The notes under the pieces are model-generated. The model did not search any database, had not been told where the DNA came from, and was given only the letters and a program-made list of their open reading frames with translations. A DNA stretch of 64,000 bases, taken from contig NZ_CP117258.1 in NCBI RefSeq assembly GCF_003240565.2, positions 368,999 through 432,998 on the forward strand, in the 5' to 3' direction. Positions 4,448 through 62,174 of the stretch are shown in pieces (position 1 is the first letter of the stretch; each line of letters starts with the position of its first letter). The position numbers and the translations under genes are program-made. The stretch is from Rhizobium tumorigenes. Its GTDB lineage: Bacteria > Pseudomonadota > Alphaproteobacteria > Rhizobiales > Rhizobiaceae.

Positions 4448-5491
4448 CTACGCGCGTCGGAATACCGCGCCGACGCGCTGTCGGCCCCTGTCCCAAAGCG
4501 CGACCAGTCCGTCGGGCTCCATGACGAGGAATAGGATGATGAGGGCCCCGAGGATGACCCTCTGGCTCATGTCGAGAACACCGGAATCGAAGATGTCGCC
4601 GAGGAAAAATGCACCCAACCGCGAGAGGATCAGGGGAAAGATGACGATGAGTGCCGCGCCGAAAAAGGCGCCGCGTACCGATGCGAGCCCGCCAATGATC
4701 ACGATGAAGAGTATCTGAAAGCTGCGATCGAGATTGAAGCCTGCAGGCTCCACCGTCTTTAGGTAGGTGAAAGCCCAGAGAACGCCGGCAATGCCGATGA
4801 TAAAGGATGAGATCGAGAACGCCAGAAGTTTGGTCTTCAGCACGGGGACGCCGATGATCCGCGCGGCGGTCTCGTTGTCGCGCACGGCGATGAAATTGCG
4901 GCCTGTCTGAGACTTCACCAGCCTCGCCGTTGCCCATGTTATCAACAGCACGGTCGTCAACGAGAACAGGTAGCGACCGATGCCGCCGTTGAATGAAAGT
5001 CCGGCGATGCTCAGCGACGGCGCATCGATGACGCCTGAAGCGGATTCGTTGGAGAACCAGCTGAATTTCGTGAGTGCCCATTGCACAAAAAACTGCGCCG
5101 CAAGGGTCGATACCGCGAGGTAGAAGCCCTTGAGGCGGAGGCTTGGGAGGCCGAATATAAGTCCGATCGCTGCCGCCGACAGCCCTGCAAGGACAAATGT
5201 CGCGATCAATGGCAGGCCGGGAACCCGAAGATTGACATTATAGGCGGCAAACGCGCCTGCAGCCATGAAAGCGGCGCTCCCAAGCGATACCTGTCCGGCA
5301 TAGCCAGTCAGGATATTCAACCCAAGTGCTGCCAGGCTCAACGATAGAAAGGGAAGGAGGATAGCTTCCAGCAGATAGTTGTTTCCGATCAGGGGCACCG
5401 CCACGTATGCGATCAACAGCAGCGCTGCCAACGGAAGCCTCGGTGTGGTAACCTGCGGCAAGCGATCGGCCTGGGAAAGGACAGCGGACAT
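4448..5491 (-). CDS. LivM-type ABC transporter permease
   Basis: This is an inner-membrane permease of the LivM type, 347 residues with about nine or ten hydrophobic segments. The family's characteristic stretch 'LNILTGYAGQVSLGSAAFMA' lies near residue 60, and a cytoplasmic coupling loop near 'DNETAARIIGVPV' contacts the ATPases. The ATG at 5491 is 3 bases from the end of livH, so the two are probably translated together. A gap of 91 bases separates it from the binding-protein gene downstream. It is part of the sfnG-sfnB operon and should carry the same substrate. Confidence 0.88.
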   Translation of the reverse strand: MSAVLSQADRLPQVTTPRLPLAALLLIAYVAVPLIGNNYLLEAILLPFLSLSLAALGLNILTGYAGQVSLGSAAFMAAGAFAAYNVNLRVPGLPLIATFVLAGLSAAAIGLIFGLPSLRLKGFYLAVSTLAAQFFVQWALTKFSWFSNESASGVIDAPSLSIAGLSFNGGIGRYLFSLTTVLLITWATARLVKSQTGRNFIAVRDNETAARIIGVPVLKTKLLAFSISSFIIGIAGVLWAFTYLKTVEPAGFNLDRSFQILFIVIIGGLASVRGAFFGAALIVIFPLILSRLGAFFLGDIFDSGVLDMSQRVILGALIILFLVMEPDGLVALWDRGRQRVGAVFRRA

Positions 5492-5494
5492 GCG

Positions 5495-6391
5495 TCAGAC
5501 CCTCTCGACAAGCTTCTGGCCAAACAGACCAGAGGGGCGGACTAGCAGAAATGCTAGCGCAACCACATAGGCAAACCAGCTCTCGATACCGCCGCCGAAA
5601 TAATCGCCGATGTAGACCTCGGCAAGCTTCTCCGCTGCGCCGATGATGAGACCACCGACGATCGCGCCAAGGATTGAGTCAAAGCCGCCGAGAACGAGGA
5701 CCGGCAGAGCCTTCAGGACCACCAGGGACAACGAAAACTGCACGCCCAGCCGCGCGCCCCACAGAAGGCCGGCAACCAGTGCAATAAGCCCTGCAGTCGC
5801 CCAGACGGTCGCCCAGATAAATGGAAGTTTGAGGCCCACGGCTAAGGCTGCGAACTGATCGTCAGCAACGGCACGAAACGATAGACCGATCCGGGTATAG
5901 CGGAAAAACACGGAAAGCAGCGCCACCATAGCGGCCGCGACGACGGCCGCGAAAATGTCAAACTGGCTCACCAGCACGCCGCCGAATTCCAGCGGCACGT
6001 CATCAATTCCGAGTTCCAGGCCATGGACCTGTGTGCCCCAGATGAGCTGGGCGGCACCTTCGATGACATAGGACAATCCGAGGGTGGCCATGAACAGCGT
6101 GATCGGTGGCTTGTTGGTCAGCGGTCGAAGGACAGTCCGCTCGATAGCGAGGCCGAGCAGCACCATGATCGCAAATGTGATGACGAAAGCCAGCCAGAAA
6201 GGAATGCCACGTTCGGTGAGGCTGACGAAGGTAAGGGCCGCGAACAAAAGCATGGCGCCTTGCGCGAAGTTGAGCACGCCCGATGTCTTGTAAATGAGTA
6301 CGAAACCGATGGCGACGAGCGAATACATTACGCCGGAGAGAAGTCCGCCGATGAGTACTTCGATAAAAAATTGCCAGTCGACGTCCGCCAT
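5495..6391 (-). CDS. LivH-type ABC transporter permease
   Basis: This 298-residue permease is the partner of LivM. It is highly hydrophobic and has the LivH hallmark 'SGVLNFAQGAMLLFA' near residue 35 and the loop 'DDQFAALAVGL' facing the ATPase. I chose the ATG at 6391 over the TTG one codon upstream because it makes a TGATG overlap with the livG stop codon, typical of translational coupling. Its position in the organosulfur operon is the only hint to its cargo. Confidence 0.88.
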   Translation of the reverse strand: MADVDWQFFIEVLIGGLLSGVMYSLVAIGFVLIYKTSGVLNFAQGAMLLFAALTFVSLTERGIPFWLAFVITFAIMVLLGLAIERTVLRPLTNKPPITLFMATLGLSYVIEGAAQLIWGTQVHGLELGIDDVPLEFGGVLVSQFDIFAAVVAAAMVALLSVFFRYTRIGLSFRAVADDQFAALAVGLKLPFIWATVWATAGLIALVAGLLWGARLGVQFSLSLVVLKALPVLVLGGFDSILGAIVGGLIIGAAEKLAEVYIGDYFGGGIESWFAYVVALAFLLVRPSGLFGQKLVERV

Positions 6392-41048: not shown

Positions 41049-42027
41049 TGCATACCCCGCCTTCACGCCGGTCAATCTCCTGACCGGCTTTCTGGGATCG
41101 GGCAAGACCACACTGCTTCGCCGTATGCTGGGGGACCCGGCCATGGTCAACACCGCCGTTTTGATCAACGAATTCGGCGAGATCGGCCTCGATCATCACC
41201 TGCTCGAGCGGATCGACGAGACCATGGTGCTGCTGCAATCGGGCTGTCTCTGCTGCACCGTGCGCGGCGAACTGGCTGAGGCAATGCGCGACCTCCACGC
41301 CAAGCGGGAAAAGGGCCTCGTCCCCGCCTTCGACCGCGTCGTGATCGAAAGCACCGGCCTTGCCGATCCTTTTCCCGTATTGTCGACGCTGAAGGCCGAC
41401 CCGGTTCTGCGCCATCACTTCAAGGCATCGAACACCATCGCAACTGTCGACGCCGTCAACGCGACTACGCAGCAAGGCCGCGTGGAATTCTCGCGCCAAG
41501 TATCGGTTGCCGACCGTATCGTACTCACCAAGACCGATCTTGCCACTGCATCGGACGCAGACAATGCGTTTGCGGCCATCCGTGCACTCAATCCCGACGC
41601 TCCGATCTGGCTTGCTGCCGGAGCGGATCTCGAGCTGCAGATGCTGCTTGCCGACAGCGAAACCGGTGAAACCAGCCTTTTCCGCTGCGACGAGCCAGTT
41701 CCAGCCGATGGCTCGACCCACGCGGGTGAAATTCGGTCTTTCGTTATCGAGGCAGAGACCGCTGTTGACTGGACCGCCTTTGGCATATGGCTGACGATGC
41801 TGCTCAATCGCCACGGGGATAGGATCCTCAGGGTCAAGGGCATCCTCGACGTCGCCGGGGAGCCCCGGCCGGTCGCGATCCATGGTGTCCAGTATCTCGT
41901 GCATCCCCCGACACACATGCGGGCCTGGCCCTCGGAGGAACGTCGCTCGGCGATAGTTTTCATCGTCGATGGCATCGAACCCGCCCTGATCGTCAGGTCA
42001 TTCCGAGCCTTCAATGCACTCGGCTGA
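41041..42027 (+). CDS. CobW/COG0523-family GTPase (metallochaperone)
   Basis: This is a 328-residue G3E GTPase. It has the P-loop 'GFLGSGKTT' (residues 16-24), the metal-binding 'CLCC' at 69-72, Walker-B-like 'VIESTGLADP' and 'LTKTDLA' for base recognition. The C-terminal CobW domain includes 'RILRVKGILDVAGEPRPVAI'. The ATG at 41041 lies inside the end of the small CxxCG gene; the open frame further upstream is a shadow. COG0523 proteins deliver Zn, Co or Fe to client enzymes. The imidase-like enzyme or the downstream DUF1989 proteins are candidate clients. Confidence 0.88.
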   Translation: MADAYPAFTPVNLLTGFLGSGKTTLLRRMLGDPAMVNTAVLINEFGEIGLDHHLLERIDETMVLLQSGCLCCTVRGELAEAMRDLHAKREKGLVPAFDRVVIESTGLADPFPVLSTLKADPVLRHHFKASNTIATVDAVNATTQQGRVEFSRQVSVADRIVLTKTDLATASDADNAFAAIRALNPDAPIWLAAGADLELQMLLADSETGETSLFRCDEPVPADGSTHAGEIRSFVIEAETAVDWTAFGIWLTMLLNRHGDRILRVKGILDVAGEPRPVAIHGVQYLVHPPTHMRAWPSEERRSAIVFIVDGIEPALIVRSFRAFNALG

Positions 42028-42130
42028 CGCTGGACATCCGCGCCTGCTCATATAATCGCCATCCGCCGCCAAAACTGTGTGCAGTTTGACAGGTGCGCTT
42101 TTGAAAGCCCTGTATTCCCGGGATTGCAAA

Positions 42131-42147
42131 CTGGCACGCGGTTTGCT
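42131..42147 (+). promoter_or_regulatory. Sigma-54 (RpoN) promoter of the guanidine operon
   Basis: CTGGCACG, four bases, then TTGCT gives an exact match to the sigma-54 consensus YTGGCACGN4TTGCW. The -12 GC is at 42145-42146, so transcription should begin near 42158, just before the riboswitch aptamer. A sigma-70-like alternative (TTGACA at 42086-42091 with TGTATT at 42111-42116, 19-base spacer) lies upstream. Partial NtrC-like half-sites are visible near 42079-42096 but are not convincing. Confidence 0.72.
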
Positions 42148-42162
42148 TCGCTCATTTCAGAG

Positions 42163-42280
42163 TTGGTGGCTAGGGTTCCGGCGCTTTCATGGCGTGCTGG
42201 TCCGAGAGCCACCACCGGTCGGGAGAGAAATCCCGCCGGGTGCACGGCGGGAGAAAAGCCCGGGAGACCTCGTTAGCCAA
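42163..42280 (+). promoter_or_regulatory. Guanidine-I riboswitch (ykkC aptamer)
   Basis: The three conserved blocks of the ykkC/guanidine-I aptamer are present in order: CTAGGGTTCCG at 42170-42180, CTGGTCCGAGAG at 42197-42208, and the CACGGCGGGA...AAAGCCCGGGAGA block at 42243-42267. The closing P1 helix can form between TGGCTA (42167-42172) and TAGCCA (42274-42279). This class binds guanidinium and turns gene expression on. It lies between the sigma-54 promoter and an operon whose genes fit guanidine uptake and breakdown. Confidence 0.95.
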
Positions 42281-42335
42281 GGGATTGGCTGCGTGAGTCG
42301 ATGCCAATCCCTTTTTGAGTAAAAGCAAAAAGGGA
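42275..42335 (+). promoter_or_regulatory. Riboswitch expression platform and ribosome site
   Basis: Three hairpins compete. A: AGCCAA (42275-42280, also the P1 strand) with TTGGCT (42285-42290), closed by a GGGA tetraloop. B: GGGATTGGC (42281-42289) with GCCAATCCC (42303-42311), followed by five T. C: CCCTTTTT (42309-42316) with AAAAAGGG (42327-42334), which hides the AGGGA ribosome site. Guanidine-stabilised P1 would block A, allow B and so free the ribosome site from C. That gives a translational ON switch. B followed by T5 also resembles a terminator, so the mechanism is not certain. Confidence 0.65.
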
Positions 42336-42342
42336 AATTGTC

Positions 42343-43416
42343 ATGCAAAGCATTTCGAAAGCATTTTCCGTCGCGGCGTTGGCTGCCTCTCTGGCAATAG
42401 GCCTCGCGCAAGGCGCTGCTGCCGCTCCGAAAACAGAGTTCAAGGTGGCTTGGTCGATCTATGTCGGCTGGATGCCGTGGGGCTATGCGGCAGATCACGG
42501 CATCGTCAAGAAATGGGCCGACAAATACGGCATCAAGATCGATGTCACGCAGTTCAACGACTATGTCGAATCGATGAACCAGTACACCGCAGGCGCCTTC
42601 GACGCGGTTACGCTCACCAATATGGACGGCCTGTCGATCCCGGCCGCCGGCGGCGTGGACACCACGGCTGTCATCGTCGGCGACTTCTCCAACGGCAATG
42701 ACGCGGTCATCCTCAAAGGCAAGGACAAGCTCGCCGACATCAGGGGGCAGCCGGTCAATCTCGTCCAGTATTCGGTCTCCGAATATCTGCTGGCCCGCGC
42801 ATTGCAGAGCCTCAACCTGACGGAAGCGGACGTCAAGGTCGTCAACACCTCCGACGCCGACATGGTTGCCGCCTACAAAACAGCGGACGTCTCGGCAGTT
42901 GTCACCTGGAACCCGCTGGTCTCGACCATTCTCGAAGACCCGACGGCAAAGAAGGTTTTCGACAGCTCGCAGATCCCGGGCGAGATCATGGATCTCATGG
43001 TCGCTAACTCGGCAGTGCTGAAGGAAAACCCGAATTTCGGCAAGGCTCTTGCCGGCATCTGGTACGAAACGGCAGCCTTGATGACGGCCGAAAGCGACCA
43101 AGGAAAGGCAGCCCGTCTCGCGATGGGAACAGCGTCCGGCACCGATCTCAAGGGTTTCGAATCGCAACTTTCCGCCACCAAGCTCTTTTCGAAGCCTTCC
43201 GACGCAGTGACCTTCACGGCTTCGGCCACCCTGCCGAAGACCATGGATCTCGTCCGCAACTTCCTCTTCACCAAGGGCCTGCTCGGTAGCGGTGCGGCAT
43301 CCGCCGATGTCATCGGCATCGAAATGCCGGACGGCGAGGTGCTCGGCGACAAGGGCAACGTCAAGCTCCGCTTCACCGAGACCTACATGAAGGCCGCGGC
43401 CGACGGCGCGCTCTGA
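42343..43416 (+). CDS. ABC transporter substrate-binding protein, probable guanidine binder
   Basis: This is a 357-residue periplasmic protein of the NMT1/SsuA-like fold, commonly annotated 'putative urea ABC transporter substrate-binding protein'. A signal peptide ends near 'AQGAAAAPKT'. Aromatic residues line the start of the mature chain ('AWSIYVGWMPWGYAADHGIV'), suitable for a small cation. The gene follows the guanidine-I riboswitch with an AGGGA site, so the ligand is probably guanidine or a close derivative rather than urea. It heads the operon of six genes. Confidence 0.85.
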   Translation: MQSISKAFSVAALAASLAIGLAQGAAAAPKTEFKVAWSIYVGWMPWGYAADHGIVKKWADKYGIKIDVTQFNDYVESMNQYTAGAFDAVTLTNMDGLSIPAAGGVDTTAVIVGDFSNGNDAVILKGKDKLADIRGQPVNLVQYSVSEYLLARALQSLNLTEADVKVVNTSDADMVAAYKTADVSAVVTWNPLVSTILEDPTAKKVFDSSQIPGEIMDLMVANSAVLKENPNFGKALAGIWYETAALMTAESDQGKAARLAMGTASGTDLKGFESQLSATKLFSKPSDAVTFTASATLPKTMDLVRNFLFTKGLLGSGAASADVIGIEMPDGEVLGDKGNVKLRFTETYMKAAADGAL

Positions 43417-43421
43417 CCGCC

Positions 43422-44297
43422 ATGCAGGAGCGGCGCGCCCGTGCCGCTCCCGTCCACTCGAAACGCGGAGCCAACGCCTTGCGATGGATCAACACCAAGC
43501 CCAGCCCGGGTGCCCGGCTGGCATTGACACTGCTGCCATTCGCCCTGCTTGCGGTCGCCTATACCGCAGGGTCGGTTGCGCGGCTCGCCGAGAATGCCAA
43601 TGACAAGCTCTTGCCCGGCCTTACTCAATTTGCCGATGCGATAAACCGGATCGCCTTTCTGCCGGATACGCGCACCGGCGACTATCTCTTCTGGAGCGAT
43701 ACCGCCGCAAGCCTTGAGCGTCTTCTGGCCGGCCTGGGGATCGCGACGGCGATTGCGCTGGCAATCGGCATGGCGATCGGCATGCTGCCTTATCTCCGCG
43801 CATTGTTTTCGCCCTTCGTCGCCGTCATCTCCATGGTGCCGCCACTGGCGCTGCTGCCGATCCTGTTTATTGTGCTGGGGCTTGGGGAAACGTCGAAGAT
43901 TGCCCTCATCGTGATCGGGATCGCGCCGACGATGATCCGTGACCTCGCCCTCCATGCGCTCGAACTGCCCCGCGAGCAGATCGTCAAGGCGGAGACGCTC
44001 GGGGGCTCGTCCTGGCAGATCGCCCTGCGCGTCGTGCTGCCACAGATCCTGCCGCGTCTGATCACCAGCATCAGGCTGCAGCTCGGCCCGGCCTGGCTGT
44101 TCCTCATCGCTGCCGAGGCGATTTCCTCCGATGCCGGGCTCGGCTACCGGATATTTCTGGTGCGCCGTTATCTCTCGATGGACGTGATCTTTCCCTATGT
44201 CGTCTGGATCACGCTTTTGGCCGTCATCGCCAATGTGCTGCTCGATCAGATCCGCATCGCCGTCTTTCCCTGGTCCGCACTGGAGAAACAGGGATGA
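43422..44297 (+). CDS. ABC transporter permease of the guanidine operon
   Basis: This is a 291-residue SsuC/TauC-like permease. An N-terminal cytoplasmic Arg-rich stretch precedes six helices. The coupling loop is 'QIVKAETLGGSSWQIALRVV' near residue 188, and 'ISSDAGLGYRIFLVRRYLSM' follows near 230. It starts 5 bases after the binding-protein gene and overlaps the ATPase start by ATGA. It is the membrane channel of the riboswitch-controlled importer. Confidence 0.86.
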   Translation: MQERRARAAPVHSKRGANALRWINTKPSPGARLALTLLPFALLAVAYTAGSVARLAENANDKLLPGLTQFADAINRIAFLPDTRTGDYLFWSDTAASLERLLAGLGIATAIALAIGMAIGMLPYLRALFSPFVAVISMVPPLALLPILFIVLGLGETSKIALIVIGIAPTMIRDLALHALELPREQIVKAETLGGSSWQIALRVVLPQILPRLITSIRLQLGPAWLFLIAAEAISSDAGLGYRIFLVRRYLSMDVIFPYVVWITLLAVIANVLLDQIRIAVFPWSALEKQG

Positions 44298-45121
44298 GCG
44301 CACTGGTCATCGAAAACGTCTGGAAGGAATACGGCGACCAGATCGTCCTGGAGAACGTCTCGCTGACGGTCGAGCCGCGCGCCTTCGTGGCCCTTGTCGG
44401 CCCATCCGGCTGCGGCAAGAGCACGTTCCTGCGCATGCTGCTCGGACAGGAGCAGCCGACGCGCGGACGCATCTTGCTGGATGGAACGCCGCTGCCGGCT
44501 GAACCCGGACGCGATCGCGGCGTCGTCTTCCAGCGCTATTCGGTCTTTCCGCATCTAACCGTGCTCGGAAACGTGCTCCTCGGCAAGGAAATGACCGCCT
44601 CGCCGCTCACGGCAAAGCTCAGGGGCGCCTCGCGCCGGCAGGCGATAGAGGAGGCACGGGCGCTGATCGCAGAAGTCGGGCTTTCCACATCGGAAACCAA
44701 ATATCCAGCCCAGCTGTCCGGCGGCATGCAGCAACGCCTCGCCCTTGCGCAGGCGCTGATCATGAAACCGAAAGTGCTGCTTCTCGACGAGCCGTTCGGC
44801 GCGCTCGATCCCGGCATCCGCGCGGAAATCCACACGCTGATGAAGCGCCTCTGGCATGAGACGCAGATGACCGTCGTCATGGTTACCCACGACATGCGGG
44901 AGGCCTTCACGCTCGCCACGCGGGTCATTGCCTTCGAGCGGCCACGCGATCGGCCGGAGGAAAAAATCCGCTACGGCGCAACGATCACCAACGACATCTC
45001 GATCTGGCCGCCGCGGCGCGCCGGATCATCGACAGCTTCCAGCCCTGACCGGGACGGCCCGGTTCCCTCTCTGGGCCCTCGCCAGGACGACCTGGCAATC
45101 CGTGAGACAGAGGAGAAATAG
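44294..45121 (+). CDS. ABC transporter ATPase of the guanidine operon
   Basis: This is a 275-residue ATPase with Walker A 'GPSGCGKST', Q-loop 'VVFQRYSVFPHLTV', signature 'LSGGMQQR' and Walker B 'VLLLDEPFGALDPG'. A C-terminal tail of about 50 residues beyond the ATPase core ('ISIWPPRRAG' onward) is polar and poorly conserved in character. It overlaps the permease gene and ends two bases before the first DUF1989 gene. It belongs to the SsuB/TauB/NrtD-like group. Confidence 0.87.
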   Translation: MSALVIENVWKEYGDQIVLENVSLTVEPRAFVALVGPSGCGKSTFLRMLLGQEQPTRGRILLDGTPLPAEPGRDRGVVFQRYSVFPHLTVLGNVLLGKEMTASPLTAKLRGASRRQAIEEARALIAEVGLSTSETKYPAQLSGGMQQRLALAQALIMKPKVLLLDEPFGALDPGIRAEIHTLMKRLWHETQMTVVMVTHDMREAFTLATRVIAFERPRDRPEEKIRYGATITNDISIWPPRRAGSSTASSPDRDGPVPSLGPRQDDLAIRETEEK

Positions 45122-45123
45122 CC

Positions 45124-45942
45124 ATGCACATGCATCGCACGACTGACGAGATAGCAGCAGACCGGGCGCGCTACGAAGAGCACCAGCGACGCGGCCTCGA
45201 CTTTGCGCCAAAGACCCTGCCGGCGCCAAGCGCGGTGCCGGCCCCGGAAATTCCCGGCGACACGGTCATCCATCAGGAGGTCATCCCGGGCGGATGGTAC
45301 TGGTCCACGCTGCTCAAGCGTGGTGAGGGGCTCAGGATAGACCAGAACGAGGGCACGTCGACAGTCGCCCTCGTTGCCTGGAATGCTGCCGGCACCAGCG
45401 AGCGCCTGAACCTTGTCGACACGGCAAAAATCCAGTGGACGACGGCGCTTAGCAAAGGCCGCGTGCTGTTTTCCGACATGGGCCGTGTGATGTTTTCGAT
45501 CACCGAAGATAGCGCCGGTACCCATGATTGCCTGATGGGCGGCTCGAATGCGGCCTCGAATGCGATGAAATATCCGGGCGTGAAAGCACGCAATACCAGA
45601 GACAACCTCGTTCTGCTGGCTGGCAAGCTCGGCCTGCAGCGCCGCGACATTCCCGGCATGTTGAACCTGTTCGCACCGGTCAGCCTCGACGAGGACGGCG
45701 GGTTCCATTGGCAGAAGAAGCGTTCGAACAGCGGCGACTATGCCGAGTTGCGGGCGGAAATGGACCTTCTCGTCGGCTTTTCCAACTGCCCCCATCCGCT
45801 CGACCCAAACCCCACCTATGCGCCCACACCCGTGACCATCACCCGGTTTCGCGCCCCCGCACCGACCGGTGAGGATCTGGCGAGGACGGCAACTGCCGAG
45901 GCCATCCGTGGCTTCGAGAACAACGCCATGATGCAGGCTTGA
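45124..45942 (+). CDS. cgdA: Carboxyguanidine deiminase subunit (DUF1989; formerly urea-amidolyase-associated UAAP1)
   Basis: This is a 272-residue DUF1989 protein. These proteins were long annotated as urea carboxylase/amidolyase-associated and are now known as subunits of carboxyguanidine deiminase (CgdAB), which removes ammonia from carboxyguanidine to give allophanate. Visible features are 'VIPGGWYWSTLLKRGEGL', 'DMGRVMFSITEDSAGTHDCL' and 'GFSNCPHPLDPNPTYAPTPV' with conserved His/Cys residues that may hold metal. Its paralogue lies immediately downstream, and the gene pair precedes the carboxylase, as in known guanidine operons. The A/B naming is tentative. Confidence 0.85.
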   Translation: MHMHRTTDEIAADRARYEEHQRRGLDFAPKTLPAPSAVPAPEIPGDTVIHQEVIPGGWYWSTLLKRGEGLRIDQNEGTSTVALVAWNAAGTSERLNLVDTAKIQWTTALSKGRVLFSDMGRVMFSITEDSAGTHDCLMGGSNAASNAMKYPGVKARNTRDNLVLLAGKLGLQRRDIPGMLNLFAPVSLDEDGGFHWQKKRSNSGDYAELRAEMDLLVGFSNCPHPLDPNPTYAPTPVTITRFRAPAPTGEDLARTATAEAIRGFENNAMMQA

Positions 45943-45954
45943 GGGAGCGCGACC

Positions 45955-46605
45955 ATGACAGACTTTATCCAGACCTCCATCGCCCGCACGATCGACAACG
46001 CCGTCGCCGATCATCGCATTCCCGCCGAGGCACCCTGGTCGGGCATCGTGCGCAAGGGACAGACAATTCGCGTCGAGGACAGCTACGGGCAGCAGGCCAT
46101 CGACACCCTGTTCTATCGTGCCGATGATTTTTCTGAGCGCTATTCCAACCAGGATACGATGCGCACCCAGGGTGCCGCCTATGTCAGCGTCGGAACCCGG
46201 ATCGTTTCCAGCGAAGGCAACGTGATGCTGACGATGACGGCTGACAGCTGTGGCCGTCACGATACGTCCGCCGGTGCGTGTTCCTGCGAAAGCAATACGG
46301 TCCGCTTCGGTCACGGGACTAAATACCTCCACGCCTGCCGCGACAACTTCATCCTGGAGGTGACGAAGCATGGCATGGACAAGCGCGACATCGTCCCGAA
46401 CATCAACTTCTTCATGAACGTGCCGATATCGCCCGATGGCAAGATGACCATCGTCGACGGCATTTCGGCGCCAGGGGATTATGTCGAGCTAGTGGCAGAG
46501 ATGGACGTCCTTTGCGTCATCTCAAACTGCCCTCAGGTCAACAATCCCTGCAACGGCTTCGACCCGACGCCCATCCGTGTCCTCGTCTGGGATCCCGAGG
46601 TCTGA
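45955..46605 (+). CDS. cgdB: Carboxyguanidine deiminase subunit (DUF1989; formerly UAAP2)
   Basis: This is a 216-residue DUF1989 paralogue of the preceding gene. It has 'PWSGIVRKGQTIRVEDSYGQ', the Cys-rich 'DSCGRHDTSAGACSCESN' near residues 97-114, and 'VISNCPQVNNPCNGFDPTPI' near the C-terminus. It is expected to form a heteromer with the first subunit and convert carboxyguanidine to allophanate and ammonia. It starts 12 bases after its partner and ends 3 bases before the carboxylase gene, so all three enzymes are co-translated. Confidence 0.85.
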   Translation: MTDFIQTSIARTIDNAVADHRIPAEAPWSGIVRKGQTIRVEDSYGQQAIDTLFYRADDFSERYSNQDTMRTQGAAYVSVGTRIVSSEGNVMLTMTADSCGRHDTSAGACSCESNTVRFGHGTKYLHACRDNFILEVTKHGMDKRDIVPNINFFMNVPISPDGKMTIVDGISAPGDYVELVAEMDVLCVISNCPQVNNPCNGFDPTPIRVLVWDPEV

Positions 46606-46608
46606 CGC

Positions 46609-49600
46609 ATGTTCAAGAAAGTCCTGATCGCCAACAGGGGCGAAATCGCCGTCCGGATCATCCGGACACTCAAGCAAATGGGAATAGCATCCGTCGCCGT
46701 TTATTCCGATGCGGACAGGTTCTCCCTGCCCGCGCGTGTCGCCGACGAAGCCGTCAGGCTCGGGCCGGCCATGGCCACCGACAGCTACCTCAACATCGAC
46801 GCCGTCATTGCGGCCTGCAGGCAAACCGGTGCTGAGGCTGTCCACCCGGGCTACGGCTTTCTCTCGGAGAATATCGGCTTTGCCGAGCGCCTGGCAGCAG
46901 AAGGCATCGCCTTCATCGGGCCGAGGCCGGAGCACCTGTCGGCTTTCGGCCTGAAACATACGGCAAGAGCGCTCGCGCAGGCGAGCGGCGTCCCGCTGCT
47001 GCCCGGCAGCGGATTGCTGGAGAGCCTGCAAGAGGCATGCGCCAAGGCAGCCGAGATCGGCTATCCCGTCATGCTGAAAAGCACGGCCGGTGGCGGCGGT
47101 ATCGGCATGCAACTCTGCCACGACGAGGCGGCACTGAAGTCCGCCTTCGAAGGGGTGCGTCGTACCGCCAATGCCAGCTTCGGCGATGCCCGCGTCTACA
47201 TCGAACGCTTCGTTGCCAACGCCCGACATATCGAGGTGCAGATCTTCGGCGATGGCAAGGGTAACGTCGTCGCTCTCGGCGAGCGCGATTGCTCTTTGCA
47301 GCGGCGAAACCAGAAGGTCGTCGAGGAGACCCCTGCCCCCGGCATTTCCGTAGATGTCCGGGCACGCCTCCACAAGGCCGCTGTCGACCTCGGTGCCTCC
47401 ATCTCCTATTCTTCCGCCGGCACCGTGGAGTTCATCTACGATCCACGCCTACAGGAATTCTATTTTCTCGAGGTGAACACCCGCCTGCAGGTGGAACATC
47501 CCGTGACCGAAGCCGTCTTCGGCATCGACCTCGTCGAATGGATGATCCGGCAGGCAGCCGGCGAAGATGTTTTGTCAAAGGCGATGGATCTGCGTCCGAA
47601 GGGGGCGGCCATCGAGGTGCGGATCTACGCCGAAATGCCGCATGCTGATTTCCGCCCGAGTGCCGGCCTTTTGACCGAAGTGGCATTCCCCGCCGATGTC
47701 CGCGTCGACAGCTGGATCGAGACCGGAACGGACGTCACCCCCTTCTACGACCCGATGCTGGCCAAGCTCATCGTTGCCGCCGATGACAGGGCATCGGCCA
47801 TCGAAAAGCTCAAGGCCGCGCTTTCGGAAACCGCGATTTCGGGCATCGAGACCAATCTCGGCTATCTGCGAAAAATCGCTTCCTCCGAATTGCTCGCCAG
47901 CGGCAATGTCGCGACAACCGCATTGCGTGACTTCGTGTTCATCCCCGATGTCATCGAGGTGCTGGTGCCCGGCGCCCAGTCCAGTATTCAAGAATTGCCG
48001 GGCCGCCTCGGCCTATGGCATGTCGGCGTGCCGCCAAGCGGGCCGATGGACGAGCGGTCCTTCCGGCACGCAAATCGCCTGGTCGGCAACCATGACGACA
48101 CGGCTGCACTGGAACTGACCGTCTCGGGGCCGACGTTGCGTTTCTTCACCGACATGACAGTTGCCCTTGCCGGTGCGCGGATGGCCATGAGCTGCGATGG
48201 CACGCCGTTGCCGCATGGTGAGCCTGTTGTCATTCCTGCAGGCGCCGTCCTGACGATCGGCAGCATCAGCGGCCCCGGTCAGCGCGCCTACCTTGCCGTT
48301 GCGGGAGGATTTTCCGCGCCAACGGTGCTTGGTTCGCGCGCAACCTTCACGCTCGGGCAGTTCGGCGGCAATGCGACCGGCGCGTTGAAGACCGGGCATG
48401 TCCTGCATCTCGCCCGCCATGAAAAGACGGAGGCTGCCAAGCGCCCCGGCGCGCCGGCGGAGCTGACGAACGCCTGGAATGTCGGCGTGGTCTACGGCCC
48501 GCATGGGGCGCCCGATTTCTTCCAGCCGGGCGATATCGACGCACTGTTCTCCCTGCCCTACGAGGTGCATTTCAACAGCGCCAGGACCGGCGTCCGGCTG
48601 GTTGGGCCAACGCCCAAATGGGCACGGGCTGACGGCGGCCAGGCAGGGCTCCATCCCTCCAACCTGCATGACAACGCCTACGCCATCGGCGCCATCGACT
48701 TCACTGGCGACATGCCGATTATCCTCGGTCCCGATGGCCCGAGCCTCGGTGGCTTCGTCTGCCCTGCCGTCATCGCGCGTGACGAACAGTGGAAGATGGG
48801 CCAGTTCAAGCCCGGCGATACCATCCGTTTCCATCCGGTGGCACGGCCTGACGATCCCCGAACGGGGCCAGCCATGCTGCCCGGCACGGCGGAGGCGGGA
48901 TCTCCCATCGTCGGGACATTCGATACCGCGCCGGTAACTGTCGTCTATCGTCGGCAGGGGGACGACAATCTCCTTGTCGAATACGGGCCAATGGAACTCG
49001 ATATCGCGCTGCGCCTGCGCGTCCATCTGCTGATGACTGCCATACAGGAGGCACGCCTTCCAGGCCTGATCGACCTGACGCCGGGCATCCGATCGCTGCA
49101 GATCCATTATGACGGCTCGACGCTGCCGCGCCGCCGGCTTCTCGGCTTGCTGGAGGACATCGAAGCCGGACTTCTGCCGGCAGAACAGGTCACGGTTCCA
49201 AGCCGCATCGTCCATCTGCCGCTGTCGTGGAACGACCCTGACGCAGAGCTGGCGATGCGCAAATATCAGGAGCTCGTCCGGCCGGATGCGCCCTGGTGCC
49301 CTTCCAATGTCGAGTTCATTCGCCGGATAAACGGCCTGGCGGACGAACAGGCGGTCAAGGACATCGTCTTCAATGCCAGTTATCTCGTGCTCGGGCTGGG
49401 CGATGTCTATCTCGGCGCGCCTGTGGCCACGCCGATCGATCCAAGGCACCGCCTCGTCACCACCAAATACAATCCGGCGCGCACATGGACACCCGAAAAC
49501 GCCGTCGGGATCGGGGGCGCCTACATGTGCATCTACGGCATGGAGGGGCCGGGAGGCTACCAGCTCTTCGGCCGCACGATACAGGTCTGGAATACGTGGC

Positions 49601-50148
49601 GGCAGACGCCTGCCTTTGCCAAGGGCAAGCCGTGGCTTCTGAACTTCTTCGACCAGATCCGCTTCTTTCCCGTCAACCACGAGGAATTGGCTGAGGCCAG
49701 AGCCGCCTTCCCTCACGGCGGCTACCCGATCCGCATCGAGGAAACAGAATTCTCCTATGCCGATTATGCGCGTGAACTGAGCGACAACGCCCCGTCCATC
49801 GCAGCCTTCCAAGGCCGGCAGCAGGCGGCATTCGAGGCCGAGCGGCAGCGATGGAAGGAGGATGGCCTCGACAGCTTCGTCACCGACGACGGCAGCGGAG
49901 AGGGTTTCGACAGCGACGTACCGGCCGGTTGCATCGGCATCGCCAGCAGCGTTCCAGGCAACATATGGAAGCTGCTTGTCGGGCCAGGTTCCGATGTGGC
50001 CGCCGGCGAGACCGTCGCCATCATCGAGTCCATGAAGATGGAGATCAACGTCACCTCCCATGCCGCAGGCCGCGTCCGCGAACTCCGCGCCGCCCCCGGC
50101 CGCACCATCAAAGCCGGCGACGTCATCGTCATCCTCGAGGAAATCTGA
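46609..50148 (+). CDS. Biotin-dependent guanidine/urea carboxylase
   Basis: This is a 1179-residue single-chain biotin enzyme. Residues 1-450 are a biotin carboxylase with ATP-grasp ('MLKSTAGGGGIGMQ', 'ERDCSLQRRNQKVVEETPAP'). About 465-1085 is a KipA/KipI-like carboxyltransferase pair. The last 75 residues are a biotinyl carrier with the target Lys in 'ESMKM' (K1143). The enzyme carboxylates urea or guanidine with bicarbonate and ATP. Placement under a guanidine-I riboswitch with CgdAB shows the physiological substrate is guanidine, giving carboxyguanidine. No allophanate hydrolase domain is fused; atzF lies on the other strand at 51486-53297. Confidence 0.9.
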   Translation: MFKKVLIANRGEIAVRIIRTLKQMGIASVAVYSDADRFSLPARVADEAVRLGPAMATDSYLNIDAVIAACRQTGAEAVHPGYGFLSENIGFAERLAAEGIAFIGPRPEHLSAFGLKHTARALAQASGVPLLPGSGLLESLQEACAKAAEIGYPVMLKSTAGGGGIGMQLCHDEAALKSAFEGVRRTANASFGDARVYIERFVANARHIEVQIFGDGKGNVVALGERDCSLQRRNQKVVEETPAPGISVDVRARLHKAAVDLGASISYSSAGTVEFIYDPRLQEFYFLEVNTRLQVEHPVTEAVFGIDLVEWMIRQAAGEDVLSKAMDLRPKGAAIEVRIYAEMPHADFRPSAGLLTEVAFPADVRVDSWIETGTDVTPFYDPMLAKLIVAADDRASAIEKLKAALSETAISGIETNLGYLRKIASSELLASGNVATTALRDFVFIPDVIEVLVPGAQSSIQELPGRLGLWHVGVPPSGPMDERSFRHANRLVGNHDDTAALELTVSGPTLRFFTDMTVALAGARMAMSCDGTPLPHGEPVVIPAGAVLTIGSISGPGQRAYLAVAGGFSAPTVLGSRATFTLGQFGGNATGALKTGHVLHLARHEKTEAAKRPGAPAELTNAWNVGVVYGPHGAPDFFQPGDIDALFSLPYEVHFNSARTGVRLVGPTPKWARADGGQAGLHPSNLHDNAYAIGAIDFTGDMPIILGPDGPSLGGFVCPAVIARDEQWKMGQFKPGDTIRFHPVARPDDPRTGPAMLPGTAEAGSPIVGTFDTAPVTVVYRRQGDDNLLVEYGPMELDIALRLRVHLLMTAIQEARLPGLIDLTPGIRSLQIHYDGSTLPRRRLLGLLEDIEAGLLPAEQVTVPSRIVHLPLSWNDPDAELAMRKYQELVRPDAPWCPSNVEFIRRINGLADEQAVKDIVFNASYLVLGLGDVYLGAPVATPIDPRHRLVTTKYNPARTWTPENAVGIGGAYMCIYGMEGPGGYQLFGRTIQVWNTWRQTPAFAKGKPWLLNFFDQIRFFPVNHEELAEARAAFPHGGYPIRIEETEFSYADYARELSDNAPSIAAFQGRQQAAFEAERQRWKEDGLDSFVTDDGSGEGFDSDVPAGCIGIASSVPGNIWKLLVGPGSDVAAGETVAIIESMKMEINVTSHAAGRVRELRAAPGRTIKAGDVIVILEEI

Positions 50149-51485: not shown

Positions 51486-53297
51486 TTACCGCGCGCCAGC
51501 ATTCCGGTTGACAAAGGCCCGCCAGCCGCCGAAGGACGAGATATCCTCTGCACCTTCGAGACCCACCGGCTCGGCCAGAAAGCCCTTTGCCTGGCTGCCG
51601 TCGCTGAGCATGATGGTTCCGATGCCGAGCGGCGGGGGAATTGCGGCGACGAACTTTCCAAAGCCGGCTGCGGAAAGTCGCCAGACTTCGACTTCGATCT
51701 TCGTGCCGGTGTTTTCAGCGCATCGGATCAGACCGGGCTTGGCCGGCGTCTGGTTGGCGAGGCTGAAAAGCTGGTAGTCGGCGGCGGTTGTGGTCGTGCG
51801 GACAAAACGCGCTTGGAGATCACGGAGCTGGATGTTGAGCGGCATGCCGGAAAGGTGCGCGCCGACAACCACGACGTCGATCAGGCCGGGTTCCTCGATC
51901 TCCGGGAGCTCGGGTCGGGGCGGCTGCGCCCAGCCGGTGGCGCCGAGGGTCGCCCCGCTTCGTTCATGGATATCGGCCGCCAGCGCTGCGGTCAGCCCGT
52001 CCCGGCCTGCCTGCGCAAGCAGCGTGACGCTTGCCGGCAGGCCGTCGCTCCGGATGCCAGTCGGCACCGCGATGCCGCACATGTCGAGCAAATTGACGAA
52101 GTTGGTGTAGGTTCCGAGCCGGCTGTTTTCGCGGATCGGCTCGGCTTCGAGCTCAGCGCGGGTGTAGTGACGCGGGGCTGTCGGGACACAGAAAAGATCG
52201 ACCGATGCGATCAGCGGTGCGACCGATCCCTTCAGGGTCTGCAATGCGTAGAGCCCGTTGAAGGCATCCGCCGCCGACAGCGATTTGGCACCACCGTAGA
52301 TCTTGGCAGTCACGGGGTGGAAGCTCTCCGGGCGGGCATCGAAGAAATCCTTCACGGCAGCATAGCGTTCCGCCACCCACGCACCTTCATAGAGAAGATC
52401 GGCCGTCTTGTAGAAGTCTGCAAACGGCACCTGGACGAGCTTGTGCCCGAGCGTTGACAGCGTCGAAAGCGCGTCCTCGTAGGATGCCTCCATTGCCGCA
52501 TCGCCAAAGAATTTTCTGTCTTCCGGCGCAAGCACGCCGATGGTGAGCACCGCCGGCAGCGGGCCGTATCCTGTTACCTGGATCGCTCTCGAATAGGCGT
52601 CCGCTGCATCGTATTTGGCGGCCACAGAGAATACCTTGAAGGCGTCGTCAGCCGTCAGGGCGAAGATCGAAACACAGTCGAGCGTGCGGCAGGCCGGCAG
52701 CACGCCCGTTGTCGAAAGCGCACCGACACTCGGCTTTAGGCCGACGATGTTGTTGAGGCCGGCGGGAATGCGGCCGGAACCAGCGGTATCGGTCCCGAGC
52801 GCAAAGCTGACGATGCCGTGCGACGTGGCAACGGCCGAACCGGAGCTCGAGCCGCCTGGCACCAGCGTCGGATCGATGGCATTGCGGGGCACTGGAAAGG
52901 GTGTGCGAACGCCGACGAGACCGGTGGCGAACTGGTCGAGGTTGGTCTTGCCGATGACCAGTGCACCGGCTTCCTTCAACAGCCGAACGACTGTTGCGTC
53001 CACATCCGGGTGGAAAGTAAAATCCGGGCAGGCGGCCGTGGTCGGCATGCCGGCGACATCGATGTTGTCCTTGACGGCGAAGGGGATGCCCCAGAGCGGC
53101 TTTGCCACCGGGTCGAATGGCCCGAGGGCTGCCGCCTCCGCCAACAGCGCGTTACGGTCTGCCAGATGCAGGAAGATGCCGCGGTCGTCGACATCGGCGA
53201 TGCGGGCAAAAACCGTGTCGACCATCTCGGCGACGGTCCAGCCGCCAGCGTAGGCCCGGCGCAGGGAGGCGATGTCGAATGCTTGTCCTTCAGTCAT
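51486..53297 (-). CDS. atzF: Allophanate hydrolase AtzF
   Basis: This is a 603-residue amidase-signature enzyme that hydrolyses allophanate, releasing two ammonia and carbon dioxide. The Ser-cisSer-Lys triad is K76 ('FAVKDNID'), S150 ('PGGSSSGSA') and S174 ('DTAGSGRIPA'), each exactly 15 less than the AtzF numbers I recall (K91, S165, S189). The C-terminal domain after about residue 450 is present. It is the last gene of the cyanurate operon, overlapping the cupin gene by eight bases. It is the only allophanate hydrolase here, so it must also serve the guanidine pathway unless another copy exists elsewhere. Confidence 0.93.
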   Translation of the reverse strand: MTEGQAFDIASLRRAYAGGWTVAEMVDTVFARIADVDDRGIFLHLADRNALLAEAAALGPFDPVAKPLWGIPFAVKDNIDVAGMPTTAACPDFTFHPDVDATVVRLLKEAGALVIGKTNLDQFATGLVGVRTPFPVPRNAIDPTLVPGGSSSGSAVATSHGIVSFALGTDTAGSGRIPAGLNNIVGLKPSVGALSTTGVLPACRTLDCVSIFALTADDAFKVFSVAAKYDAADAYSRAIQVTGYGPLPAVLTIGVLAPEDRKFFGDAAMEASYEDALSTLSTLGHKLVQVPFADFYKTADLLYEGAWVAERYAAVKDFFDARPESFHPVTAKIYGGAKSLSAADAFNGLYALQTLKGSVAPLIASVDLFCVPTAPRHYTRAELEAEPIRENSRLGTYTNFVNLLDMCGIAVPTGIRSDGLPASVTLLAQAGRDGLTAALAADIHERSGATLGATGWAQPPRPELPEIEEPGLIDVVVVGAHLSGMPLNIQLRDLQARFVRTTTTAADYQLFSLANQTPAKPGLIRCAENTGTKIEVEVWRLSAAGFGKFVAAIPPPLGIGTIMLSDGSQAKGFLAEPVGLEGAEDISSFGGWRAFVNRNAGAR

Positions 53298-61867: not shown

Positions 61868-62174
61868 GGTGATCTCCTCGCGGCATTGCCGGTTCAAAAG
61901 GTTACGAAAGTCTTGAAGCAACTGTCGTGCCACTTTGAAAATATGATGATATCAATGCCTTATGGGATACCAATGTGAAAAACACAAAACTGTATGCACT
62001 TTTTCTGAGCTGATGAATAAATTATCGGCTTTTTGGATTTCTGCGAGCTACCGATTGGCTCGAACCCCAAATTCTAGACAAATAATGTTTTATAACAATG
62101 GCTTGTGCTAACATTGACATCCTGCTGTTCTCGATGCATCTGTAGGCAGTACGGTTTAGATATAGAGACAACGT
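61868..62174. other. Divergent control region between cyanurate operon and GntR gene
   Basis: This region is AT-rich compared with the rest. Besides the sigma-54 element it contains candidate GntR sites. TGGGATACCA (61963-61972) is palindromic except for one base pair. TTGA/TCAA arms bound an imperfect 21-base repeat (61935-61955). CAATG (62096-62100) pairs with CATTG (62112-62116). None can be assigned with confidence. The TGGGATACCA site is most like known FCD-type GntR operators. Confidence 0.45.
61918..61933 (-). promoter_or_regulatory. Sigma-54 (RpoN) promoter of the cyanurate operon
   Basis: On the minus strand TGGCACG, four bases, then TTGCT (61932 down to 61917) matches the sigma-54 consensus at every conserved -24 and -12 base; only the preceding pyrimidine is missing. 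Transcription would start near 61906, about 40 bases before the binding-protein ATG. This implies nitrogen control through an NtrC-type activator. Confidence 0.7.

Follow-up and report, generated by a model that had tools for sequence, protein, structure and literature searches.

In Vreelandella boliviensis, a guanidine operon like that of the window described here is known (PMC12508155). According to the available portion of that paper, this operon has a guanidine-I riboswitch upstream and a guanidine-II riboswitch inside, encodes an ABC importer, CgdA/B, a carboxylase and allophanate hydrolase, and gives higher protein levels on guanidine than on ammonium; this portion gives no promoter type. 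The two inputs are not separated by this comparison, since replacing ammonium by guanidine alters the nitrogen status along with the guanidine supply. Guanidine-I riboswitches are described as transcriptional switches that turn genes on with guanidine (available parts of PMC12186494 and PMC11410670), and guanidine riboswitches are discussed, in the literature as far as it was accessible, as though guanidine alone sets expression.

A second related operon is that of Burkholderia cenocepacia H111, for which the following is taken from the accessible part of PMC5491218. I35_7283-7286 are expressed at lower levels in an ntrC mutant (no value is given for 7283 and 7285), with a log2 change of -6.0 by RNA-seq for the 'urea carboxylase' I35_7286, and 95% of the top 150 genes are also regulated by sigma-54. 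The operon encodes a 'urea carboxylase-related' ABC transporter, an aminomethyltransferase and a urea carboxylase, and is annotated similarly to that of the window. It is treated there as an operon of urea metabolism, and that part of the paper does not mention a riboswitch. In a computed sigma-54 regulon (PMC12316311), 102 COG3665 genes are predicted in alpha, beta and gamma groups, 59% of them named urea carboxylase; in the text available, 'guanidin' is absent and 'riboswitch' occurs once, in the reference list.

Promoter element, riboswitch and operon of the window

The window is the whole stretch of Rhizobium tumorigenes DNA that was analysed (64,000 nucleotides), and the coordinates of its features are summarized in Table 1. 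It contains C-TGGCACG-CGGT-TTGC-T at 42132-42147, which reads as a perfect sigma-54 element and agrees with TGGCAC-N5-TTGC at 10 of 10 positions. Eleven bases separate the end of this element from the start of the guanidine-I aptamer at 42159. The original prediction, made from the sequence of the window, proposed a perfect YTGGCACGN4TTGCW element with a start five bases before the aptamer. The element is present and is supported by the comparison described below, and the position given for the start is right, with the first paired base of the aptamer at 42164 in the minimum-energy fold and the predicted +1 at about 42158/42159. The perfect consensus is found twice in the window by pattern search, as compared with a chance estimate of 0.015 for 64 kb if equal base frequencies are assumed. 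Matches with up to two mismatches are not enriched in the window (14 found versus 12.45 expected), and therefore it is the exactness of the match and its location that carry the case made from this single window. The genome of the window encodes RpoN (PF04552, 231 bits). The second perfect element lies 5' of a BMP-type ABC gene, which opens a minus-strand run that includes isochorismatase, AtzD/TrzD-type, nitrilase-type and allophanate hydrolase genes. In R. etli, TGGCATGACCATTGC begins 72 nt ahead of the gene corresponding to this BMP-type ABC gene.

Table 1. Positions of the features in the window, counted from its first nucleotide
Feature	Position	Strand	Evidence
Candidate NtrC enhancer TGCTCATATAATCGCCA, degenerate TGC-N11-GCA	42045..42061	+	Aligned with the palindromes of Rhizobium relatives
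Sigma-54 -24 element TGGCAC	42132..42137	+	Sequence, pattern match, spacer control
Sigma-54 -12 element TTGC	42143..42146	+	Sequence, pattern match, spacer control
Predicted transcription start, C or A	42158..42159	+	Placed 12-13 nt past the GC of the -12 element
Guanidine-I riboswitch aptamer (RF00442)	42159..42268	+	cmscan 82.6 bits (gathering cut-off 63), E 3.3e-13
Candidate antiterminator hairpin AGCCAA-GGGA-TTGGCT	42275..42290	+	Minimum-energy fold; overlaps the 5' arm of the terminator
Predicted intrinsic terminator	42279..42316	+	11-bp stem AAGGGATTGGC / GCCAATCCCTT, 13-nt loop, T-run
ABC substrate-binding protein (SBP), NMT1-like	42343..43416	+	Pfam PF13379
ABC permease	43422..44297	+	Pfam PF00528
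ABC ATPase	44294..45121	+	Pfam PF00005; 3' coding end holds the guanidine-II aptamer
Guanidine-II aptamer (RF01068)	45046..45095	+	cmscan 32.6 bits (gathering 32)
DUF1989 / UAAP1, CgdA-like by gene order	45124..45942	+	Pfam PF09347
DUF1989 / UAAP2, CgdB-like by gene order	45955..46605	+	Pfam PF09347
Urea/guanidine carboxylase, biotin-dependent	46609..50148	+	Pfam biotin carboxylase and CT domains
Allophanate hydrolase, last pathway step	51486..53297	-	Pfam Amidase and AH_C
Second perfect sigma-54 element	61917..61932	-	5' of BMP-type ABC gene

Downstream of the guanidine-I aptamer lie genes for guanidine transport and metabolism, namely those for an ABC importer, two DUF1989 proteins and a carboxylase, and the gene set of the window is that of the guanidine carboxylase pathway (PMC12508155). 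Unlike in V. boliviensis, the allophanate hydrolase gene is located apart from the operon; it closes a run of minus-strand genes that converges on the operon. The R. etli and R. tumorigenes annotations name the product of the substrate-binding gene 'putative urea ABC transporter'. Guanidine and urea carboxylases are distinguished by an aspartate that replaces an asparagine at the substrate-specificity position (PMC12186494, in the portion available); for the carboxylase of the window, the riboswitch and the DUF1989 partners point to guanidine as the probable substrate. The translation of the UAAP2 gene and a protein encoded by a Rhizobium tumorigenes plasmid are 100% identical. A named Rhizobium ecuadorense record contains a locus of this kind as well. 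The reading frame of the ATPase contains the guanidine-II aptamer, upstream of the first DUF1989 gene, so that the same letters encode the tail of the ATPase protein and the two hairpins of the aptamer. The orthologous aptamer of R. etli scores 40.6 bits and likewise lies (6100-6149 of locus L348) within the ATPase coding sequence (5348-6172). In R. etli CFN 42, the promoter and the two aptamers, guanidine-I and guanidine-II, are arranged on p42e as they are in the window.

The putative terminator downstream of the guanidine-I aptamer is kept in four Rhizobium relatives, in which an A-to-G change (GCCAAT to GCCGAT) still permits pairing. It was missed by a standard terminator scan, the loop limit of which is 8. 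The core of the candidate antiterminator, GCCAA-GGGA-TTGGC, is retained in three of the four Rhizobium relatives shown, and the fourth has TTGGT. Since guanidine-I is a transcriptional on-switch according to the papers cited above, guanidine binding should favour read-through. Terminators are recognised by a relaxed scan in 12 of 73 promoters of the order of the window (Rhizobiales), as compared with 1 of 144 control windows (an exact-stem scan recognises 3 of the 73), and outside the order in 2 of 35 promoters versus 2 of 68 control windows, which is little better than the control. This low frequency suggests that the expression platform varies, and that other lineages either use another platform or have terminators that the scan misses. 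Within 42309-42335, CCCTTTTT can pair with AAAAAGGG across the likely Shine-Dalgarno sequence of the first gene; the letters of this region are similar in four relatives, and the pairing would be free to form after antitermination.

Occurrence and geometry of the element before guanidine-I riboswitches

The decisive support for reading the element as a putative sigma-54 promoter is comparative. RF00442 was searched for in 397 genomes of the order, 101 of which have a match, and in 398 genomes of the phylum, 43 of which have a match; the second sample overlaps the first. The upstream DNA was read at 111 of 122 places in the order and 45 of 46 outside (156 in total); the 11 other places in the order score 33.1-39.1 bits, and the one left out outside the order (G577) scores 42.6 bits. 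At 138 of the 156 places the aptamer scores at least 61 bits. TGGCAC-N5-TTGC is found with a score of at least 9 of 10 at 108 of these 138 places, and with a score of at least 8 at 121, the places being related by descent and hence not independent. None of the 18 weaker hits (below 61 bits) has an element with a score of at least 8. When the spacer is changed to N1, N2, N3, N4, N6, N7, N8 and N9, the numbers of places with a score of at least 9 are 3, 1, 1, 0, 7, 2, 4 and 3 respectively, as compared with 108 for N5 (n=138). This spacer control rules out a chance match in one window. Among dinucleotide shuffles of the upstream DNA, 0.6% attain a score of 9. A general feature of the riboswitches of the order is ruled out by control riboswitches, because the element is found at 0 of 26 glycine and 1 of 28 TPP riboswitches of the same order (4 glycine and 2 TPP loci too short to be used were dropped). 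The original prediction had proposed a sigma-54 promoter in front of the guanidine-I aptamer and a genome search for TGGCAC-N5-TTGC near ykkC-class riboswitches in Rhizobiales; the search bears out this promoter and is positive well beyond the order. Of the families with such aptamers, 19 of 21 in the order have the element, as do 10 of 16 among the remaining families of the phylum sample.

This recurrence bears on the possibility that a sigma-70 promoter, with TTGACA at 42086-42091, drives the operon, the -24/-12 element being incidental and guanidine the sole control. This hexamer is present in the window, but no sigma-70-type site passes a scan of 41900-42500, the hexamer is TTGGCA in the R. 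tumorigenes record compared and has no visible counterpart at that place of the alignment in other relatives, and 108 of 138 homologous leaders share the -24/-12 element with N5. A sigma-70 promoter is therefore highly improbable as the driver of this operon.

The element is also placed at a nearly constant distance from the aptamer. In the order, the predicted start is 10-17 nt before the TAGGG of the aptamer in 68 of 73 promoters (13 nt in the window). Outside the order, it is 35-85 nt before TAGGG in 34 of 35, and the exception, at 13 nt, belongs to the class of the window. In the genus of the window, all four other aptamers, which were selected without regard to the promoter, have an element with a score of 10 at 12-13 nt. 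In the rest of the family, one aptamer has an element with a score of 9.5 at the usual place, and that of G349 has one with a score of only 8, 44 nt away. In one further family (f109), which is taken as Burkholderiaceae because its nearest named DNA is that of Caballeronia (84%), all 27 newly read places score at least 8 and 20 score at least 9, with the predicted start 34-54 nt before TAGGG; 9 of 36 places were left out (3 already counted, 6 without a locus). In six genomes of this family (G682, G774, G790, G841, G845 and G857), guanidine-I aptamers occur in back-to-back pairs of opposite orientation, with about 360-430 bases between the two. Conservation, an exact spacer, a near-fixed distance to the aptamer and the enhancer-like sites described below strongly support the identification of a sigma-54 promoter, as far as comparison of sequences can tell.

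A pattern scan of named genomes yielded at least 119 stretches, but these were picked by the promoter pattern and are uninformative on its frequency; matches less than 200 bases from the end of a stretch were dropped before counting. Among the matches listed, a second aptamer core is found as a letter pattern in 90 of 118 read, 21 of the other 28 pass RF00442 and 7 fail; the matches listed are mostly from Alphaproteobacteria, with 21 from Acinetobacter and 3 from Solimonas. A match in Gracilibacillus (L105), which is antisense to a transposase-like open reading frame and does not contain RF00442, was rejected.

The presence of the element varies with the first recognised gene downstream (Table 2). 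The 18 hits below 61 bits are those of the EamA and TRAP-type groups, which are perhaps not guanidine switches. Seventeen RF00442 hits of 39-58 bits precede EamA-type-like genes (one of them tested with Pfam) and are without the element; some of their cores are identical, and they are possibly a variant ykkC-like RNA. Peptide-type ABC genes follow a guanidine-I aptamer and a sigma-54 element at L192, L031 and five further loci, and the substrate of these transporters may be a guanidino compound. Two loci with no recognised first gene (L158 and L161) have arginase-family-like genes (one tested) and are without the element.

Table 2. First recognised gene downstream and places with a high sigma-54 score
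First recognised gene	Score at least 9	Score at least 8
SBP	87 of 103	
Permease	6 of 7	
DUF1989	5 of 13	10 of 13
Carboxylase	1 of 1	
Peptide-type ABC parts	7 of 7	
EamA	0 of 17	
TRAP-type	0 of 1	
APC	0 of 1	
None recognised	2 of 6	

Seventeen of the 138 places score below 8, with SBP (8), DUF1989 (3), permease (1), APC (1) or none recognised (4) as the first gene. Ten of these exceptions lie in the order, and the search for RpoN covered exceptions from outside it. Two genomes (G606 and G695) give no rpoN hit and have aptamers without the element (scores of 6 and 4). G425 and G723 have rpoN and assimilation genes, yet are without the element, and G738 and G440, with scores of 6 and 7, both have rpoN hits (in two pieces in G440).

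The element is likewise absent from one family (f102) in which the aptamer is found in 68 of 81 genomes. None of the 41 places read (of 72) has the element, the highest score being 6, and the first recognised gene is an APC permease at 40 places and a carboxylase at one. RpoN is encoded in all 40 genomes searched (in two pieces in one of them). A search for amoA (PF02461) is positive in 27 of 40 genomes of this family, and all 11 genomes that consist of at most 4 contigs contain three copies; the 13 amoA-negative genomes are in 20-340 contigs. None of 10 genomes from other families has amoA. Based on this distribution, the family is taken to be bacterial ammonia oxidisers; a possible assignment to Moraxellaceae was dropped on GC content and amoA. 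Ammonia oxidisers are described as having guanidine degradation genes controlled by guanidine-I (available part of PMC11410670). A straightforward interpretation would be that bacteria with ammonia as their fuel are ill served by a gate that opens at nitrogen limitation; guanidine nitrogen can probably serve them as fuel as well. This contrast counts as one evolutionary case, a single family with a different first gene.

The comparison also bears on the possibility that the operon moves as a cassette and that the element is inherited baggage, to which nitrogen gating is irrelevant. In R. tumorigenes and R. etli the operon is plasmid-borne, as would be expected of a mobile cassette. However, the upstream DNA diverges among Rhizobiaceae and the element stays, in rows that were picked by a pattern demanding the element, and four rows of the same genus that were not picked by the promoter pattern have it as well. 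In addition, the element persists though its spacing from the aptamer differs between classes, and it is absent from the ammonia-oxidiser family and from the two genomes without an rpoN hit. Inherited baggage is the least probable of the explanations considered, with hardly any likelihood left to it.

Enhancer-like sites and the candidate activator

Sigma-54 promoters outside the order are often accompanied by the classical NtrC consensus. GCACY-N5-RGTGC is found with at most one mismatch in 20 of 35 of these promoters (1.0 expected) and in 8 of 20 promoters of the putative Burkholderiaceae family (0.48 expected). This E. coli-type consensus is not enriched in the promoter set of the order. 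De novo counting in the latter set led to a palindrome, TGCCYAA-N3-TTRGGCA, which is found with at most three mismatches in 36 of the 73 promoters (1.0 expected), this set being the source of the motif. It is found under the same condition in 47 of 77 named alphaproteobacterial promoters (1.4 expected), a set that is not identical to the first but shares genera with it, and in 0 of 108 control regions. These results suggest that the enhancer sites take two class-specific forms, as judged from their letters. The palindrome is a TGC-N11-GCA, the form that has been tested by EMSA and DNase footprinting for NtrC of S. meliloti and noted in rhizobial glnII promoters (PMC10746234, in the part available).

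The distances from the palindrome to the element bunch near 50, 60, 72, 80 and 92. With seven periods tried, those of 10-11 bp have Rayleigh p values of 0.0009-0.007 in the first set. In the second set, p is 1e-4 at 10 bp, 2e-9 at 10.5 bp and 2e-11 at 11 bp, and the NtrC dyad of promoters outside the order gives 0.02-0.04. All these values overstate the significance because related sequences are not independent. A joint search for the palindrome and the promoter with a gap of 25-55 and zero mismatches gives 0 of 150 genomes, many sites lying farther off.

The genome of the window encodes NtrC (TIGR01818, 696.5 bits, cut-off 558.6). The candidate site at 42045-42061 is centred 79 nt upstream of the -24 element and about 105 nt upstream of the predicted start, and a centre spacing of about 80 nt is the commonest in the relatives. 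This site has five mismatches to the alphaproteobacterial consensus by hand count and is weak alone, so that it is a weak candidate NtrC site, in the right place with a weak sequence. The best palindrome found by script in the window, CGCCAAAACTGTGTGCA, has four mismatches, a level that about 9% of shuffles reach. The original prediction had attributed activation to RpoN with an NtrC-type activator. The sigma-54 part of this interpretation stands. The NtrC part is supported outside the class, where it agrees with the motif and with RNA-seq of the B. cenocepacia ntrC mutant; within the order, the palindrome matches the published rhizobial site, but the copy in the window is degenerate.

The promoter may instead depend on sigma-54 and an activator other than NtrC, perhaps one specific to guanidine or amides. 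The weak NtrC-like site of the window is consistent with this possibility, as are three further proteins of its genome that match the NtrC model over at least its 363 first positions, and the presence of the palindrome (at most three mismatches) in only 36 of the 73 promoters of the order. In Acinetobacter, other repeats lie beside the -24 element: GTATTAC/GTAATAC is found within 60 nt upstream of it in all 21 named promoters (L032, L035, L049, L064 and L139 among them) and at least twice in 14, and NtrC-type enrichment is weak in these promoters. These repeats suggest a different activator, or a repressor, in this genus. Nevertheless, the enrichment in the order amounts to about 35-fold for TGC-N11-GCA, that of the NtrC consensus in promoters outside the order to about 17-20-fold, and the similarly annotated B. 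cenocepacia operon is NtrC-dependent (available part of PMC5491218). A non-NtrC activator is thus unlikely, while retaining an appreciable share of the probability.

Proposed serial control and relation to known systems

The elements, their spacing and conservation, and the gene content, which come from sequence and comparison, make it very likely that the window contains a guanidine-assimilation operon under two-input serial control, in which initiation depends on sigma-54 and NtrC and is followed by guanidine-dependent read-through. Sigma-54 RNA polymerase would occupy 42132-42146, and initiation would require an enhancer-binding activator, most likely NtrC phosphorylated at nitrogen limitation and acting from 42045-42061. 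With a transcription start 5-6 nt ahead of P1, the guanidine-I aptamer would be the first part of the transcript to be made. Without guanidine, the leader would stop at the terminator at 42279-42316. With guanidine, the antiterminator form at 42275-42290 would be favoured, and the importer, CgdA/B-like and carboxylase genes would be transcribed. The guanidine-II aptamer in the end of the ATPase gene probably controls translation of the CgdA-like gene. We infer promoter use in vivo, the role of NtrC at this locus, control of termination and AND behaviour from this arrangement; the operon would be off unless nitrogen limitation and guanidine are both present.

It is also reasonably probable, with less confidence than for the window itself, that in much of the Pseudomonadota guanidine use is gated serially by nitrogen starvation, guanidine-I and sometimes guanidine-II, that the start is locked to the aptamer in the order, that the ammonia-oxidiser family keeps the aptamer and has dropped or never had the gate, and that the promoter tells nitrogen feeding from another role. 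If so, the promoter would serve as a sequence test for the use of guanidine as nitrogen food. Should guanidine-I be preceded as a rule by a nitrogen-starvation promoter in nitrogen-feeding Pseudomonadota, tests with guanidine in rich or ammonium-containing media would miss the response.

The components of this arrangement are known and their combination is apparently undescribed. As the original prediction had supposed, no description of a guanidine riboswitch joined to sigma-54 or NtrC was met among the papers listed from the accessible literature, to which most subscription papers do not belong; a 2025 review on guanidine does not contain 'sigma', 'NtrC' or 'RpoN'. The leader of gifB from Synechocystis (PMC6316151, as far as available) is like that of the window in that one leader combines a riboswitch, for glutamine, with control of its promoter by a nitrogen regulator. 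In gifB, however, the regulator NtcA is a CRP-family protein that acts as a repressor, both inputs report nitrogen status, and the product inhibits glutamine synthetase, without sigma-54 and without sensing of a substrate. The window, by comparison, probably represents a natural case of a sigma-54 promoter and a riboswitch arranged in series with near-fixed geometry.
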